Shown here in pieces: positions 196 to 33,988 of a stretch of DNA of 64,000 nt (its first letter is position 1; each line of letters opens with the position of its first letter). The notes under the pieces were generated by a model, which worked only from the letters and a program-made list of their open reading frames with translations, made no database searches and was not told where the DNA came from. This DNA comes from Anaerosolibacter sp. GTDB lineage: Bacteria; Bacillota; Clostridia; Peptostreptococcales; Thermotaleaceae. The position numbers and the translations under genes are program-made. The DNA is taken from the NCBI RefSeq assembly GCF_029240175.1, contig NZ_JARBTM010000010.1:1-64000 (forward strand), read 5' to 3'.

Positions 196-2259
196 TTAAA
201 GACTTATTTCTCCTAGTCTATCAATAAATTTTTCAACGAGCTTGTTTTTTAGCACCTTGTTTTTTTCTAAACAAAGGGTTGTATCCTCTTCCAAAAGAAT
301 AGCAGCTTCCTTTTGCGCATGTTTCAAGACGTGAACGTGCTTAAACAAATTGGCGATCCTCAATTCTGGGATTCCATGCTGTCTTGTGCCAAAAAAGTCA
401 CCAGGTCCCCTAAGCTCTAAGTCTTTTTCAGCAATAACAAACCCATTTTCTGATTGTTCCATCACTTGCATTCTTTCTTTTGTTCGGTTATTTTTACCAC
501 TACTGATTAGCAAACAATAGGATTGATGTACGCCTCTGCCCACTCGTCCCCGCAGCTGATGCAGCTGTGCCAAGCCAAATCTCTCACTATTTTCAATGAT
601 CATGACCGATGCATTCGGTACATTTACACCTACCTCGATGACCGTTGTAGAAACCAACACATCAAGTTGTCCAGATTTAAATTCTGCCATTACAGATTCC
701 TTTTCTTGCCCTTTCATTTTTCCATGCAGCAAACCAATTCGAAAATCCTTTAAGTAAAGATTGCTTACCTCCTCAAAAATATCTAAGGCAGATTTGGCTT
801 CAATACTTTCTGATTCTTCAATCAGCGGACAAACAATATAGACCTGTCGACCATCCAAAATTTGTCCTTTTGCAAAATCATAAGCTGCTTGGCGTCTTTC
901 TTGTTGCATACATATCGTTTTAATTTTTTTTCTGCCTGGAGGTAATTCGTCAATTGTAGATATATCTAAGTCGCCATATAAAATCAAAGCCAATGTTCTT
1001 GGTATAGGCGTTGCTGTCATCACTAGAATATCCGGGTTTAATCCCTTGCTGGAAAGTACCGCCCGTTGCCGCACACCGAATCTATGTTGCTCATCTGTGA
1101 TCGCAATTCCCAGCTTATGAAAGGTGACGGTTTCTTGAATAATTGCATGGGTACCGATGATCAGATTTATTTCTCCTGATTCAATTTTCCTTAAAATTTC
1201 TTTTTTCTTTTTTTTAGGTATGCTCCCTGATAAAAGTGCTGTGTTCACGCCTAAGGGCTCTAGTAATTCCTTAGCCGAATGCAAATGCTGTTCTGCCAGT
1301 ATTTCAGTAGGCGCCATCAGTGCACCTTGATAACCGTTTAATATTGCTTTATATAGGGCAATCAGAGCGACCACTGTTTTTCCCGAGCCTACGTCGCCCT
1401 GTACCAAACGATTCATTGTTTTACTTTGTTCCATATCAATTTCAATTTCTTTTAACACTTTTTTCTGCGCATTTGTCAATCTATACGGCAGTGCCTCAAT
1501 AAGTCTATATAATTCAGGTTTTCTGTCAAACTTAATTCCCTCTTGTTCTACCATAAGCTTATTCTTAGTTAAAGATAATCCCAACTGCAAGATGAGTAAT
1601 TCTTCAAAAACAAGCCTGTATTTTGCTACTTTTAAATGCTGAGGCGATTGTGGAAAATGAATATTTCTAATAGCATAATGAATGTCACACAAACGATTTC
1701 TTTGAATAGTATCCTGTGGCAGATATTCATCCATGAAATCTACATAGCTATGAAGGACTTGGCTTTGGATCCCTATGAAATCATTTTGGGTTAAACCTTC
1801 CGTAAGACTGTAAACGGGAAGAATCCTCTCAAACAGCTTTCTTTCCTTATTGCTGACAAATTCATATTCTGGATGAAGAATCTGTATTTCTCCAAAAGCG
1901 ATTTTCACCTTACCATTGATGTATATTTGCTGCCCAATAGAGAAAGTATTCTGAACAAATGGTGTATTATAGAAAATTCCGTAGGCAGTACCCGTTGTAT
2001 CTCGGAAAGGCACTTTATAAATATTAAAGTTTCTTTTTACAGTTACTTTTTCAACGTCTCCACACACAGTGACCTTTAGAGAAACCTTGTCCTCATTTTT
2101 CAAGCCCTTAATATTGTCAATATGTCGTCGGTCCTCATATTCTCGAGGAAAAGCGTACAGAATGTCCTCAATAGTATGAATCCTCATTTTTTGAAATCGC
2201 TTATACTTGGTAGGCCCTATGCCCTTTAAAAACTGAAGGGTTTTCTTTAGTTCATTCAA
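196..2259 (-). CDS. recG: ATP-dependent DNA helicase RecG
   Basis: The 687-residue protein matches the normal RecG length and layout. An N-terminal wedge/OB region (to about residue 170) binds branched DNA. It is followed by two helicase lobes with Walker A GDVGSGKT near residue 288, the DEQHRFG box, and the ATPIPRT and QLRGRVGRG motifs. RecG remodels replication forks and Holliday junctions. The start is TTG, chosen because GGAGG lies 8 bases upstream and the N-terminal sequence fits the family. It follows fakA on the same strand, but a terminator-like hairpin sits between them. The yloU-fakA-recG order is the usual Firmicutes arrangement. Confidence 0.96.
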   Translation of the reverse strand: MNELKKTLQFLKGIGPTKYKRFQKMRIHTIEDILYAFPREYEDRRHIDNIKGLKNEDKVSLKVTVCGDVEKVTVKRNFNIYKVPFRDTTGTAYGIFYNTPFVQNTFSIGQQIYINGKVKIAFGEIQILHPEYEFVSNKERKLFERILPVYSLTEGLTQNDFIGIQSQVLHSYVDFMDEYLPQDTIQRNRLCDIHYAIRNIHFPQSPQHLKVAKYRLVFEELLILQLGLSLTKNKLMVEQEGIKFDRKPELYRLIEALPYRLTNAQKKVLKEIEIDMEQSKTMNRLVQGDVGSGKTVVALIALYKAILNGYQGALMAPTEILAEQHLHSAKELLEPLGVNTALLSGSIPKKKKKEILRKIESGEINLIIGTHAIIQETVTFHKLGIAITDEQHRFGVRQRAVLSSKGLNPDILVMTATPIPRTLALILYGDLDISTIDELPPGRKKIKTICMQQERRQAAYDFAKGQILDGRQVYIVCPLIEESESIEAKSALDIFEEVSNLYLKDFRIGLLHGKMKGQEKESVMAEFKSGQLDVLVSTTVIEVGVNVPNASVMIIENSERFGLAQLHQLRGRVGRGVHQSYCLLISSGKNNRTKERMQVMEQSENGFVIAEKDLELRGPGDFFGTRQHGIPELRIANLFKHVHVLKHAQKEAAILLEEDTTLCLEKNKVLKNKLVEKFIDRLGEISL

Positions 2260-14522: not shown

Positions 14523-17003
14523 CTAAAGCATATTGAATGGATTTATATCTATATTGATATTGACATCATTTCCACTGTTTTTCTTCAATACATTTATTCT
14601 TACAGTATTTATTATACCCCTTATAACATTTTGGTCAATCATTTTGCTTTTAATAATAATCTGCCATCTATATTTTTGATTTATTCGTGCTAAAGCTGCA
14701 GGGCCAGGTCCAAAGATTATTTCCTCCGTTATATCGACATTCTTTAGCGCATATTTCAGCTCCGCTGCATATTCATTAGACAGTCCTATGACATCCGTCT
14801 CTTTTTCCCCTGTAATCATTATATTAATCAACTGTGAAAATGGAGGATAGTTAAAGGATTCTCTCACGGCAATTTCTTGATGATAAAATGAAACAAAGTC
14901 ATGATTTTGCGAAGCCTGAATTGCAAAATGCTCTGGTTCGTAGGTTTGAACGATAACCCGACCTAAACGTTCTCCTCTACCTGCCCTTCCAGCAACCTGG
15001 GTAATCAATTGAAATGTCCTTTCAGCGGCACGAAACTCTGGTAGGTTTAAGCTCATGTCTGCAGCAATTACACCAACCAAGGTTACATTCGGAAAATCTA
15101 AACCCTTGGCAATCATTTGAGTTCCTATAACGATGTCCACCTTACCTTGTCTTATTTCCCGTATGATTTTCTCCATTGAACCTTTACGCGACGTGGTATC
15201 CAGGTCTAGTCTTGAAATTTTAGCAGCGGGAAACAATTCTTGCGTCATTTTTTCAATTTTTTCTGTACCTGTCCCAAAGTACTTTATATACTTGCTATTA
15301 CATTTAGGACATAATTGGGGTGGGTTTTGTTTATAGCCACAATAATGGCAGGATAAAAAATGACTATTTTTATGATAGGTTAAGGATATTTCACAGTGAG
15401 GACATTTCACAACATAGCCGCAGCTTCTACAGGAAATAAACGTAGAATATCCTCTTCTATTTAAAAATAAAATTGTCTGTTCTCCCATTTCTAGGTTTTT
15501 ATGAATCTCTCTGTATAGACGTTCACTAAATACACTTTTATTCCCATTCTGTAATTCTGCCCTCATGTCGATGATATGAACATCTGGCAGCTTATTTTGA
15601 TTATACCGATTCTCCATACTTAGCATTCTGTATATTCCCTTTTCAGACTTATGATAGCTCTCGAGGGAAGGCGTAGCTGATCCTAATAGTAGTATGGCAT
15701 TACGTTGTTTACATCTGAACTCAGCTACTTCTACAGCATGATATTTGGGACTCTGTTCTGATTTATATGTATGTTCGTGTTCCTCGTCAACAATGATAAT
15801 TCCTAGATTGTCAAATGGTGCAAATACTGCCGATCTGGCACCGATGGCAATTTTTACTTCTCCCCTTTTGATGCGGTTCCATTCGTCATACCGTTCTCCT
15901 AATGAAAGCTTACTATGAAGCACTGCAATCTGATTCCCAAATCGGCTCCTAAACCGCTCAATCATCTGGGGGGTTAGAGAAATCTCCGGAACAAGTACAA
16001 TGGCCTCTCGGGATTGTTCAATCGCCTTTCTGATCAGCTGCATATAAACTTCTGTTTTCCCACTACCGGTTATACCATGTATCAAGAAAGGCTGATATTT
16101 GAAATTCATCATAGAAGGTATAACTTGCTGGATTACCTGATTCTGTTCATCCGTTAGCTCAATTTTTTTCTCTGCAACGATCTCTGTTTGTCCAAATGGA
16201 TCTCTCTTTTTTTCGATAACTTCAATTTTTACTAATCCTTTTTCTCTCAGAGAATCTATTAAGCTCCCATTAACACCTAGGTCTTTTCTTAACGCTGACC
16301 ATTTGGCAGGGCCATTTTCCATAAGATAATTAAGTATTTGCTTCTGCTTTATAGCATTCTTCTTAAGCTTTCCTAATGCTTCAATAATATTCAATCCTTC
16401 TGTAAGTCCAACAATCTTCTCTGTCAGGGTATTCACTTCATTTTTAAAATGATTTTCTAAAACAATCATACCTTTATCTACCAAGCTCTTCACTGTACTA
16501 GTCGGTTCAAAAGAAAGAATCTGCTTCAGGGATGATTCAGTAATATTTCTGTGAGTTCGTATCGCTTCAACCACAGCCTTCTGCTTATCTGACAACCTTA
16601 TATCCACTGTTTGTCCATTATTATAGCTATCATTCAGACGTATTTTTCTATCTAGCTTATAGGATAAGCCTGTAGGGATCATACACTGTACTGCATCAAT
16701 ATATGTACATAAATATTTCTCTCTCATCCACTTGCATAATTCAATAAGATTCTCTGAAATTAACTTTTCCTCATCAACGATGTCTTGTATGTATTTCACT
16801 TTAAAGGCAGGTATTTCTATATCTACGTTATCATCTACCACATACCCTTCAATGAGCTTGTTTCCTTTGCCAAAAGGAACCATCACCCTTGTGCCAATAG
16901 AAATTCGGTCCATCAAGTCATCAGGTATACCATAGGTATAGGTAGTATTCGTATGACTACTTTTATTATTGATTACAATTTCTACATATCTAGCGTTTTT
17001 CAT
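14523..17003 (-). CDS. priA: primosomal protein N' (replication restart helicase PriA)
   Basis: The 826-residue protein has an N-terminal DNA-binding domain, then helicase lobes with [11 protein letters not shown] near residue 310, DEEHEHTYK, and [10 protein letters not shown] zinc-binding insertion has eight cysteines ([24 protein letters not shown]), and QVAGRAGRG follows. PriA reloads the replisome at stalled forks. An extended -10 box (TGTTATAAT) lies about 40 bases upstream. The gene is separated from coaBC by 288 bases that hold an unusual GC-rich element. Confidence 0.96.
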
Positions 17004-17038: not shown

Positions 17039-17047
17039 ATTATAACA
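17039..17047 (-). promoter_or_regulatory. candidate extended -10 promoter for priA-def-fmt
   Basis: TGTTATAAT reads on the minus strand at 17047-17039, giving a predicted start about 30 bases before the priA ATG. No clear -35 box is visible. Confidence 0.4.
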
Positions 17048-17087
17048 GAATCATGTCATCCAGCACCATAGAAAATGCATCTAACGA

Positions 17088-17190
17088 TGCCTTCGCTAGG
17101 GGAACCTAGTTCCCCTTCGACGGCTGCAAAGCAGCCTGAGCACCCCTCTGACTACGGCAGGGGAATACTTCCCCTGCACCCCTGTTTTTT
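17088..17190. repeat. GC-rich triple-hairpin intergenic element
   Basis: This roughly 100-base island is far more GC-rich than its surroundings. It holds three perfect hairpins: AGGGGAAC/GTTCCCCT (17098-17116), GGCTGC/GCAGCC (17122-17136) and GCAGGGGAA/TTCCCCTGC (17157-17177). GCACCCCT occurs twice (17140 and 17177), and six T follow at 17185-17190. CAGGGG at 17158 can instead pair with CCCCTG at 17179-17184, immediately before the T-run, so two mutually exclusive folds exist on the plus strand. It may be a copy of a dispersed palindromic repeat or a structured RNA. No ORF of note is present. Confidence 0.6.
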
Positions 17191-17271
17191 ATTGTAAAAT
17201 ATTTCAACATACTTATACTGCTTGTTCTTACTATGGTTGATACGAATCGAAATCTATACTTTCTTACTCAA

Positions 17272-17300
17272 TAAAAAAGGAGTAGATGTCCCTACTCCTT
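17272..17300 (-). terminator. intrinsic terminator of coaBC
   Basis: On the minus strand AAGGAGTAG and CTACTCCTT form a 9-bp stem followed by TTTTTAT. The stem contains the coaBC stop codon. Confidence 0.85.
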
Positions 17301-18494
17301 ATGCCATAATTTTTTAACTTTACTAAGAATTGCATCTGCTAGATCTTTTTTGGCCATCAAGTCATAATGCTCCTGATTACCTTCTCGATCAATGATTGTA
17401 ACAATATTGGTGTCAGATTTAAACCCGGCTCCCTCTCTTGTCAGATCATTGGCAACAATAAAATCCAAATTTTTCTTCTCTACCTTACTTTTAGCATTGG
17501 TAATCAGATCTTGGGTTTCTGCGGCAAATCCTACCAGGATTTGTTCAGCTTGTTTTCTTTGGCCTAGCTCTTTTAATATGTCTGGATTTCTTGTGAGCTC
17601 AACAACCCAGTCTCCCTCGCCTTTTTTGATCTTATTCTCAGCAACTGCTTTCGGTCTATAGTCAGCCACCGCAGCAGATTTAATAAACACATCCGCCCAG
17701 TTTAACTGACCCATTACAGCATCATACATCTCATGGGTCGTGTTGATATCTATTCGCTTTACGCCAGCTGGCGTTAAAAGATTTGTTGGTCCAGATATTA
17801 AAATCACCTCAGCACCCCGCTGAGCAGCCCTCTCCGCAATGGCATACCCCATTTTTCCAGAAGAATGATTGGTGATATACCGGACAGGATCTATTGACTC
17901 CCTTGTAGGACCAGCAGTTACCACGAGTTTCATACCATTCAAGTCGTTGGGGATATTTAGCATCTTTAGCACTTCTTCCACAATAACCTCAGGATCAGCT
18001 AATTTGCCTTTCCCATAATCCCCGCAAGCCAATCGTCCTGCTGCTGGCTCAATAAACGTATATCCCCTTGCTTCCAATTTTCGAATATTGTCCTGAACTA
18101 TAGGGTTTTCATACATATTCGTGTTCATAGCAGGTGCTACTAACACAGGTGCTTTTGTGGCCATGACAGTTGTTGTTAACATATCATCTGCTATGCCATA
18201 GGCAATTTTGCCTATTACATTTGCTGTTGCCGGCGCAATTAGAAACAAATCCGCCTTCTGAGCAAGGGAAATATGTTCTACATCCCAGGTTCTAGGTTCA
18301 TCGAACATATCTGTTACTACATAGTTTTGTGATAAGGATTGGAAGGTCAATGGCTGAACGAACTCCTGGGCAGATTTTGTCATAATCACATGTACATTTA
18401 TGCCCAGCTTTCGTAACCGACTAACCACATCTGCTGCCTTGTATACAGCAATGCCCCCTGTTACACCTAATACTACATTTTTATTTGTAAGCAT
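17292..18494 (-). CDS. coaBC: bifunctional phosphopantothenoylcysteine decarboxylase / phosphopantothenate-cysteine ligase
   Basis: The 400-residue fusion has an N-terminal flavin decarboxylase domain (CoaC) with GGIAVYKA, the flavin-site segment LIAPATANVIGKIA, PAMNTNMYENP, and the substrate-loop cysteine in RLACGDYGKGKL. A C-terminal ligase domain (CoaB) follows with TAGPTRESIDPVR and SAAVADYRP. It performs two consecutive steps of coenzyme A synthesis. It is 11 bases downstream of rpoZ in the yloC-remA-gmk-rpoZ-coaBC operon and ends at a terminator. Confidence 0.97.
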   Translation of the reverse strand: MLTNKNVVLGVTGGIAVYKAADVVSRLRKLGINVHVIMTKSAQEFVQPLTFQSLSQNYVVTDMFDEPRTWDVEHISLAQKADLFLIAPATANVIGKIAYGIADDMLTTTVMATKAPVLVAPAMNTNMYENPIVQDNIRKLEARGYTFIEPAAGRLACGDYGKGKLADPEVIVEEVLKMLNIPNDLNGMKLVVTAGPTRESIDPVRYITNHSSGKMGYAIAERAAQRGAEVILISGPTNLLTPAGVKRIDINTTHEMYDAVMGQLNWADVFIKSAAVADYRPKAVAENKIKKGEGDWVVELTRNPDILKELGQRKQAEQILVGFAAETQDLITNAKSKVEKKNLDFIVANDLTREGAGFKSDTNIVTIIDREGNQEHYDLMAKKDLADAILSKVKKLWHKE

Positions 18495-33911: not shown

Positions 33912-33988
33912 TGGTCTGAGTGGGGAGACTTGAACTCCCGGCCTCTAGAACCCCATTCTAGCGCGCTACCAAACTGCGCCACACCCAG
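33912..33988 (-). tRNA. tRNA-Pro (anticodon GGG)
   Basis: The 77-base gene folds as a cloverleaf. The acceptor stem is CTGGGTG/CACTCAG, the D arm is GCGC...GCGC, and the anticodon stem is CTAGA/TCTAG with loop ATGGGGT, giving anticodon GGG with G37. The T arm is GGGAG-TTCAAGT-CTCCC. The discriminator A and CCA are encoded. A matching promoter lies about 60 bases upstream and a palindromic terminator directly follows. Confidence 0.95.

Follow-up and report, generated by a model that had tools for sequence, protein, structure and literature searches.

The window, that is, the whole stretch of 64,000 nucleotides analysed here, contains between coaBC (17292–18494, minus strand; Pfam DFP and Flavoprotein), the upstream neighbour, and priA (14523–17003, minus strand; Pfam PriA domains), the downstream one, a small island with a GC content of 62% (17088–17184) as compared with 37% window-wide. 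In this island a first-pass annotation, made from the letters alone, had recorded three perfect stems of 8 bp (17098–17105/17109–17116), 6 bp (17122–17127/17131–17136) and 9 bp (17157–17165/17169–17177), a duplicated GCACCCCT (17140–17147 and 17176–17183) and a T-run (17185–17190), all of which are indeed present, and had left the choice between a mobile palindromic repeat and a switchable structured RNA. What kind of element this is, and how it came to lie at the end of coaBC, is the question addressed here. The explanation that we favour, with a probability of about 0.82, is a miniature, non-coding and non-autonomous mobile element, with the Rfam family RF02937 as its core, which inserts in one orientation into the T-tracts of intrinsic terminators. 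Mobility and terminator targeting are well supported: the copies are dispersed, they have entered pre-existing terminators and have a T-tract on both sides, they carry an A-tract that pairs with it, and their stems form on one strand.

The copy between coaBC and priA

In the Rfam scan of the window, positions 17110–17191 of the minus strand match RF02937 (Clostridiales-2), the only Rfam family that the element hits, with 86.6 bits against a gathering threshold of 58.6, over the full length of the model (positions 1–82 of 82). The same scan finds a PyrR binding site (RF00515, 23881–23970, minus strand) and a tRNA gene (33915–33988, minus strand) elsewhere in the window. The full unit is longer than the Rfam match and extends on the minus strand over approximately 17072–17278, from the T-tract of the coaBC terminator (17278) to about 28 nt ahead of a likely –10 box of priA, TGTTATAAT (17039–17044, minus strand; motif by inspection), which is found just downstream of the element and also in G015, a genome in which the site is empty. 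The boundaries first proposed, 17088–17190, were too short, as a 94-nt 5′ arm and a 3′ terminator hairpin had been overlooked, and the element does not lie beyond the coaBC terminator, as had been thought, but starts inside its T-tract.

Read along the minus strand, the locus begins with the target, the intrinsic terminator of coaBC (17277–17300; terminator scan), formed by AAGGAGTAG/CTACTCCTT and a T-tract and overlapping the coaBC stop codon. The tract TTTTTT (17273–17278) is common to the host terminator and to the left edge of the element, as indicated by an inverted repeat (17185–17194/17269–17278) and by the empty sites found at other copies. It is followed by the 5′ arm in its long form (94 nt, 17185–17278), the ends of which make up the pair TTTTTTATTG/CAATAAAAAA; six copies of this form are present in the host genome, every one of them joined to the element. 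The 16-mer TTGATACGAATCGAAA of the long arm (17237–17252) recurs upstream of copy L029, at the end of an apparent coding region, where it seems to be either a chance match or a scrap of another repeat. The arm ends in an A-tract (17185–17190), the partner of the target T-tract. Then come the three core stems, each seen in the sequence and backed by covariation, namely H2 (9 bp, 17157–17177), H3 (6 bp, 17122–17136), which is flanked by the conserved GGTGCTCAG and CGTCGAAGG, and H4 (8 bp, 17098–17116), and finally the element's own 3′ terminator-like hairpin GCATCGTTAGATGC-A-TTTT (17072–17090; terminator scan), which has equivalents in other copies. The hairpins exceed chance expectation: the minus strand of 17066–17278 folds at –66.5 kcal/mol, shuffled sequences at –49.4 ± 3.9 kcal/mol (z –4.4), and none of 200 shuffles is as low.

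Copies, layout and distribution

The host genome (G000; 3.87 Mb, 50 contigs) contains 43 RF02937 matches at E ≤ 0.001, 38 of them over the gathering cut-off, and none of 14 control genomes has any. The blastn search with 17080–17195 that the annotation had suggested gives 40 matches in the host genome, a draft in which contigs are perhaps missing; most are 90–99% identical, with a divergent minor group at 77–81%, and all are element copies at places of RF02937 matches, with no autonomous partner sharing the same ends among them. The sequence is thus multi-copy. When the 43 host copies are read on the folding strand, the Rfam model turns out to be only the middle of a unit of about 150–210 bp without an ORF, in which the order is host terminator hairpin, T-tract, 5′ arm, A-tract, CAGGGGTGC, H2, H3, H4, last hairpin and T5–T7. 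The commonest 5′ arm is the palindrome ATTTAATAGGAAAG-TTCTA-CTTTCCTATTAAAT, with the T-tract at one end and the A-tract at the other; in the window copy the long arm takes its place. The last hairpin varies in sequence (GCATCGTTAGATGC, GCAGCTTTGCTGC, GCGTCGGAGACGC or GCACACGGAGTGTGC); a terminator-like 3′ hairpin with a T-run is found in 85 of 104 anchored copies of the major type, so that an insertion in most cases regenerates the type of target it has used, and the minor subfamily mostly has no 3′ T-tract. By inspection there are no terminal inverted repeats of the kind that define MITEs, since the 5′ end is T6-A-T... and the 3′ end hairpin-T6, and the one inverted repeat is confined to the 5′ end of the element and does not join its two ends.

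Two irregularities were noticed at the edges of copies. In L079, L100, L106, L125 and L170 a piece of the element's own 5′ arm (about 10–25 nt, ending near the loop) is repeated after the 3′ T-tract, which looks like the start, or the remnant after excision, of a second copy. A dispersed sequence, TTTATTGTCTTAGSGTGGGATTTGTSGGAAATGTTGGC, adjoins L014 upstream and L024 downstream in opposite orientations; its start resembles the long arm, and it may be a further arm type or a repeat in its own right.

Outside the host the distribution is patchy. At E ≤ 1e-12, 7 of 16 genomes of the family are positive, with 38, 60, 71, 28, 32, 2 and 1 matches, and nine have none; the same-genus genome G001 has 77 matches. 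For comparison, 99 copies were fetched from relatives, taking best scores first among the matches listed: 40 of 77 in G001, 19 of 28 in G010, 20 of 32 in G011 and 20 of 71 in G002. A pattern scan of species genomes returned 92 stretches, and among those listed are Geosporobacter, Anaerosolibacter, Anaerovirgula, Alkaliphilus, Natronincola, Ruminiclostridium and several clostridial MAGs. One pattern match, L201, is labelled as a Planctomycetota MAG and lies on a contig of 5.4 kb, which seems likely to be a mis-binned clostridial contig. Spread via plasmids or phages received no backing, as blastn gave no match in either the plasmid or the phage collection.

Conserved structure of the core

The core alignment comprises 121 of the 142 copies, from five genomes; the 21 omitted are duplicates, contain N or have no anchor. 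Of the 2171 cells in the three core stems, 2133 are paired; 500 partner shuffles average 1887 and reach 1921 at most. The shuffles preserve the make-up of the columns and not the relatedness of the copies, so that the excess is not to be read as a probability. G-U cells outnumber C-A cells by 197 to 19, which assigns the fold to the minus, or element sense, strand. The 5′ palindrome likewise survives many pair changes in the 52 short major-type arms (at one position, for example, A-T 26, T-A 23, C-G 2 and G-C 1, with zero mismatch), although these arms were found by a palindrome search, which itself favours pairing.

These results support the structured RNA of the first-pass annotation, through both the covariation and the Rfam family, and revise its geometry. 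The fold had been placed on the plus strand, whereas the Rfam match and the G-U excess in the family alignment put it on the minus strand; the six T noted there are consequently the A-tract of the folding strand. CAGGGG can pair with either CCCCTG copy, as had been pointed out, but the alternative pairing is not seen conserved, and the term "switchable" is not sustained, as 98% of the core-stem cells retain their pairing, with compensatory change. Because the Rfam match and the G-U bias point to the minus strand, a plus-strand terminator, CAGGGG...CCCCTG-T6, was rejected as the main reading. Neutral sequence, the fallback that the annotation had reserved for a single copy without conservation, covariation or transcript, was rejected on the 43 genome matches and the covariation.

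Insertion into the T-tracts of terminators

The clearest evidence for mobility comes from orthologous sites. A query lying between two host copies located the corresponding region of G001, in which both sites are empty. The first site reads GGCTACAAG-TTTTTT-GACACTTACAAACAAAT when empty and GGCTACAAG-TTTTTT-(element)-TTTTT-GACATTTATAGACAAAT when occupied, with GACACTT (G001) versus GACATTT (host) in the downstream flank. The second, a ZTP riboswitch terminator, reads CCCAGGCGG-TTTTTT-GCGTTAGTTAAGA when empty and CCCAGGTGG-TTTTTTTGT-(element)-TTTTT-GTATTGATTAAGA when occupied, the downstream flanks being GCGTTAG (G001) and GTATTGA (host). Set against each other, empty and occupied sites indicate that the element split the T-tract of a pre-existing terminator, with T-tract remaining on either side. 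At the coaBC site, inspection shows a GGAGTAG/CTCC hairpin at the stop codon in 13 of the family's 16 genomes, whether or not the element is present, and since it is kept in so many of them this terminator is, by sequence comparison, old. The site is occupied in 2 of the 16 genomes, by the major subfamily in the host and by the minor one in G001, each directly after the hairpin, and it is empty, with the hairpin present, in the sister genome G015. Empty orthologous sites, by which a mobile element is recognised, thus exist at two places in G001 and at coaBC in G015, and together with the 43 dispersed matches and the presence in only 7 of 16 relatives they bear out the proposal of a mobile palindromic repeat.

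At two further terminators (L083/L127 and L125/L147) the copies found in two genomes differ in subfamily or core type, and in the nested copy L081 the minor type sits inside the 3′ terminator of the major type. With flanks matched on both sides, only one of the 43 host copies occupies the same site as any of the 99 copies fetched from relatives, in addition to the window site. Whether the duplication goes beyond the T-tract was judged in 51 of the 61 copies described below: the shared prefix after both T-tracts sums to 100 versus 90.6 on permutation (p 0.03; p 0.054 with one base more), which is only suggestive, and a duplication this weak means that part of the 3′ T-tract could be borne by the element.

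As for the generality of the target, 59 of the 142 copies have no 5′ hairpin of score at least 11 (long arms, G002 and degenerate copies) and 22 more have no parsable pair of T-run and A-run, which leaves 61 parsed copies. In 44 of these 61 the T-run is immediately preceded by a stem of –8 kcal/mol or lower, compared with 70 of 488 shuffles of the upstream DNA and 26 of 397 runs of five or more T in the window, so that insertion after an intrinsic terminator, in the sense used for group IIC introns, is found in these 44. With the limit at –6 kcal/mol the figures are 49 of 61, 123 of 488 and 39 of 397; one of the 12 copies then left without a stem, L021, has one by another parse. Among the long-arm copies of the host, five of six follow a hairpin (by eye). 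Simple ORF calls show 30 of 43 host copies with both flanking ORFs running in the direction of the element, and 35 of 42 with a co-directional upstream ORF; some of the exceptions are explained by an RNA in the upstream position. The flanks of the 43 host copies and of the 40 fetched from G001 (83 in all) were scanned with Rfam, which places the element behind riboswitches and T-boxes (see below) and behind other RNA genes, namely the large SRP RNA (L035), a tRNA (L040) and tRNA-Sec (L104). Since the terminators of all these RNAs are occupied, the target of the element is the terminator and not the gene end. A minor-type copy in an unusual location for a repeat, L133 (G010, 501–583, minus strand), sits upstream of a 16S rRNA gene, about 40 nt from its 5′ end.

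Copies in riboswitch and T-box leaders

A regulatory leader on the same strand stands directly upstream of the element in 8 of the 83 copies: T-box leaders at L010 and L037, a ZTP riboswitch at L026, a purine riboswitch at L082, SAM riboswitches at L088 and L095, a lysine riboswitch at L091 and a cobalamin riboswitch at L096 (all Rfam). In these cases it is the terminator of the leader that is occupied, and the element comes to stand before the regulated gene. Behind six of the eight there is a plausible client ORF, in four of the six only partial as it runs off the locus, encoding ilvH (acetolactate synthase small subunit), fhs (formate-tetrahydrofolate ligase), an XdhB-like protein (similar to the xanthine dehydrogenase FAD subunit), metQ, cbiX and lysA; the ORF behind L010 has no family match and that behind L095 a weak match only. 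The 3′ hairpin and T-run are retained in 4 of 8 leader copies and in 50 of 83 copies overall, and no loss of the 3′ terminator in leaders is claimed from this difference. In L037 (T-box, ilvH) the 3′ hairpin is weakened by mismatches to –1.7 kcal/mol, and in L010, which has a second T-box on the opposite strand, it is intact. Copies of this kind are natural experiments on how an expression platform withstands the arrival of a second structured RNA and sometimes of a second terminator.

Fit between arm and target

The A-tract fits its own target better than arms swapped within the genome do, with 6.39 versus 5.68 consecutive outward pairs (p 0.0002). By genome, the values are 6.50 versus 5.48 in the host (p 0.0002), and p is 0.14 in G001, 0.008 in G010 and 0.06 in G011. 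Eight copies have a base other than A after the T-tract, and each of them has the complementary base ahead of the A-tract. In G010 and G011, however, T-tracts of different lengths mostly face the same default A-tract, from which it follows that the A-tract belongs to the element; an arm rewritten from the target upon insertion was rejected for this reason. Palindrome correction or selection at a later stage is the most likely source of the closer fit in the host.

This bears on a single step of the favoured explanation. That the near-perfect fit was made after insertion, by quasi-palindrome correction during replication and not by pairing at transposition, has in our estimate an even chance: the default A-tract of G010 and G011 agrees with it, as does the fit in the host, which is above chance and extends into the host base preceding the T-tract, but selection on the RNA hairpin predicts the same pattern, and in all short-arm forms the A-tract was there from the start.

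Possible mechanism and alternative explanations

For the element that homes to terminators we infer both an enzyme and a pairing step. A trans-acting enzyme would recognise the core as a folded single strand of RNA or ssDNA, the A-tract arm would align with the T-tract of an open or cruciform terminator, and cleavage within the T-tract would duplicate it. Insertion should be cheap for the host, which retains the old terminator and usually gains a new one, except in the expression platforms of riboswitches or T-boxes. A wider proposal, which we put forward tentatively and at less than even odds, is that there exists a class of miniature elements that home to terminators by pairing of A-tract arm and T-tract, independently of group II introns, whose own terminator regenerates the target so that copies can stack, and whose use of riboswitch and T-box targets rewires leaders. 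As to the enzyme, no mobilising one emerged from the family-level tests of group II reverse transcriptase (RT) and Y1/RAYT genes, neither of which discriminates as a driver.

Among the other explanations, a REP/RAYT-type system, in which a Y1 (HUH) transposase from another locus of the genome uses the hairpins as ssDNA substrates, would account for the lack of terminal inverted repeats, for the subterminal hairpins and for a single-strand fold with strand bias, and the element-rich genomes do encode Y1 proteins of about 255–315 aa. We nevertheless consider it rather unlikely, since such proteins occur equally in element-free genomes (15 of 16 family genomes have them), none of the seven Y1 genes of the host has an element within about 1.5 kb, and the T-tract is present on both sides of the element, whereas Y1 transposition is not known to duplicate its target.

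The T-tract on both sides, together with sense-strand folding, would suit a SINE-like retroelement that borrows the RT of a group IIC intron, its RNA ending in U6 at its own terminator and priming at nicked A-strands of terminators; bacterial-C introns occupy the same target niche (PMC8919778, in the part cited here). In addition, the 5′ hairpin of L034 (end of contig C37 of the host, 1606–1691, minus strand) contains, at the contig end, a group II intron 3′ end (RF00029, 51.8 bits), as if this arm itself had served as an intron target. The genomes argue otherwise and make this origin improbable: G010, whose 28 matches are near-identical copies, and G002, with 71 matches, have no group II RT at E ≤ 1e-20, and G003, G005 and G012 have several and yet no element. 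Copies truncated at the 3′ end (L013, L021, L031, L040, L076, L129 and L134) moreover outnumber, by inspection, those truncated at the 5′ end (L024), the opposite of what target-primed copying predicts, and target-primed retroposition was rejected on this pattern. Slightly less probable still is a conserved small RNA gene or cis-regulatory RNA (the Rfam type is "Gene; sRNA") with many copies as functional paralogues, which would be consistent with the strong, G-U-biased covariation, the own terminator and the positions in riboswitch-controlled leaders; against it stand copy numbers and sites that vary between relatives and a simple scan of the window copy in which no promoter-like sequence was found on the sense strand.

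Comparison with known systems

Within open-licence PMC papers, no description of the element, its terminator rule, its empty sites or its leader copies was found. The nearest entry is RF02937 itself, whose whole model the window copy matches; in Rfam it is an 82-nt sRNA gene, and here the repeated unit has 150–210 bp, starts with a 5′ arm inside a host terminator and includes a 3′ terminator that the model does not cover. What the database types as an sRNA gene is thereby recast as a mobile element that targets terminators, for which there are empty sites and a clear rule of target choice. The intrinsic terminator as a safe harbour was already known from group IIC introns, and an ORF-less element of 150–210 nt suggests a second, testable route to it.

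Palindromic repeats of other bacteria share some of these traits. The GTAG/CGTC REPs are non-coding palindromes, often downstream of genes, and the element is likewise palindromic and non-coding, with a conserved CGTC beside a stem, but REPs are shorter (20–40 bp), and the cited part of their description names neither Firmicutes nor "terminator" (PMC3733652). In the Bacillus cereus group, bcr1–bcr3 are MITE-like intergenic repeats, often transcribed in UTRs, to which the element may be likened as a Firmicute repeat of this form; terminator targeting is not stated in the part of that source used here (PMC3446304). In Streptococcus pneumoniae, SPRITE, BOX and RUP are short structured repeats dispersed near genes and nested in one another (PMC3049150, sections cited), as the element is, with a different sequence and structure. 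According to the same sections, SPRITE is terminator-like and enriched at gene 3′ ends, with AAAA/TTTT ends and an 18-bp stem followed by a U-rich tract, is not placed inside host terminators and has no comparable empty site reported, and RUP and BOX carry terminal inverted repeats, none of which were seen in the element (PMC3049150). Bacterial-C (group IIC) introns insert directly after Rho-independent terminators (PMC8919778, part cited) and thus use the same insertion niche, but they are ribozymes with an RT, whereas the element has no ORF, the Rfam scan of the window gives no RF00029 match, and its presence does not track that of RT genes. On the partial accounts considered here, and as analogy with no claim of membership, the closest analogues are group IIC introns by behaviour (PMC8919778) and SPRITE and BOX by form (PMC3049150).
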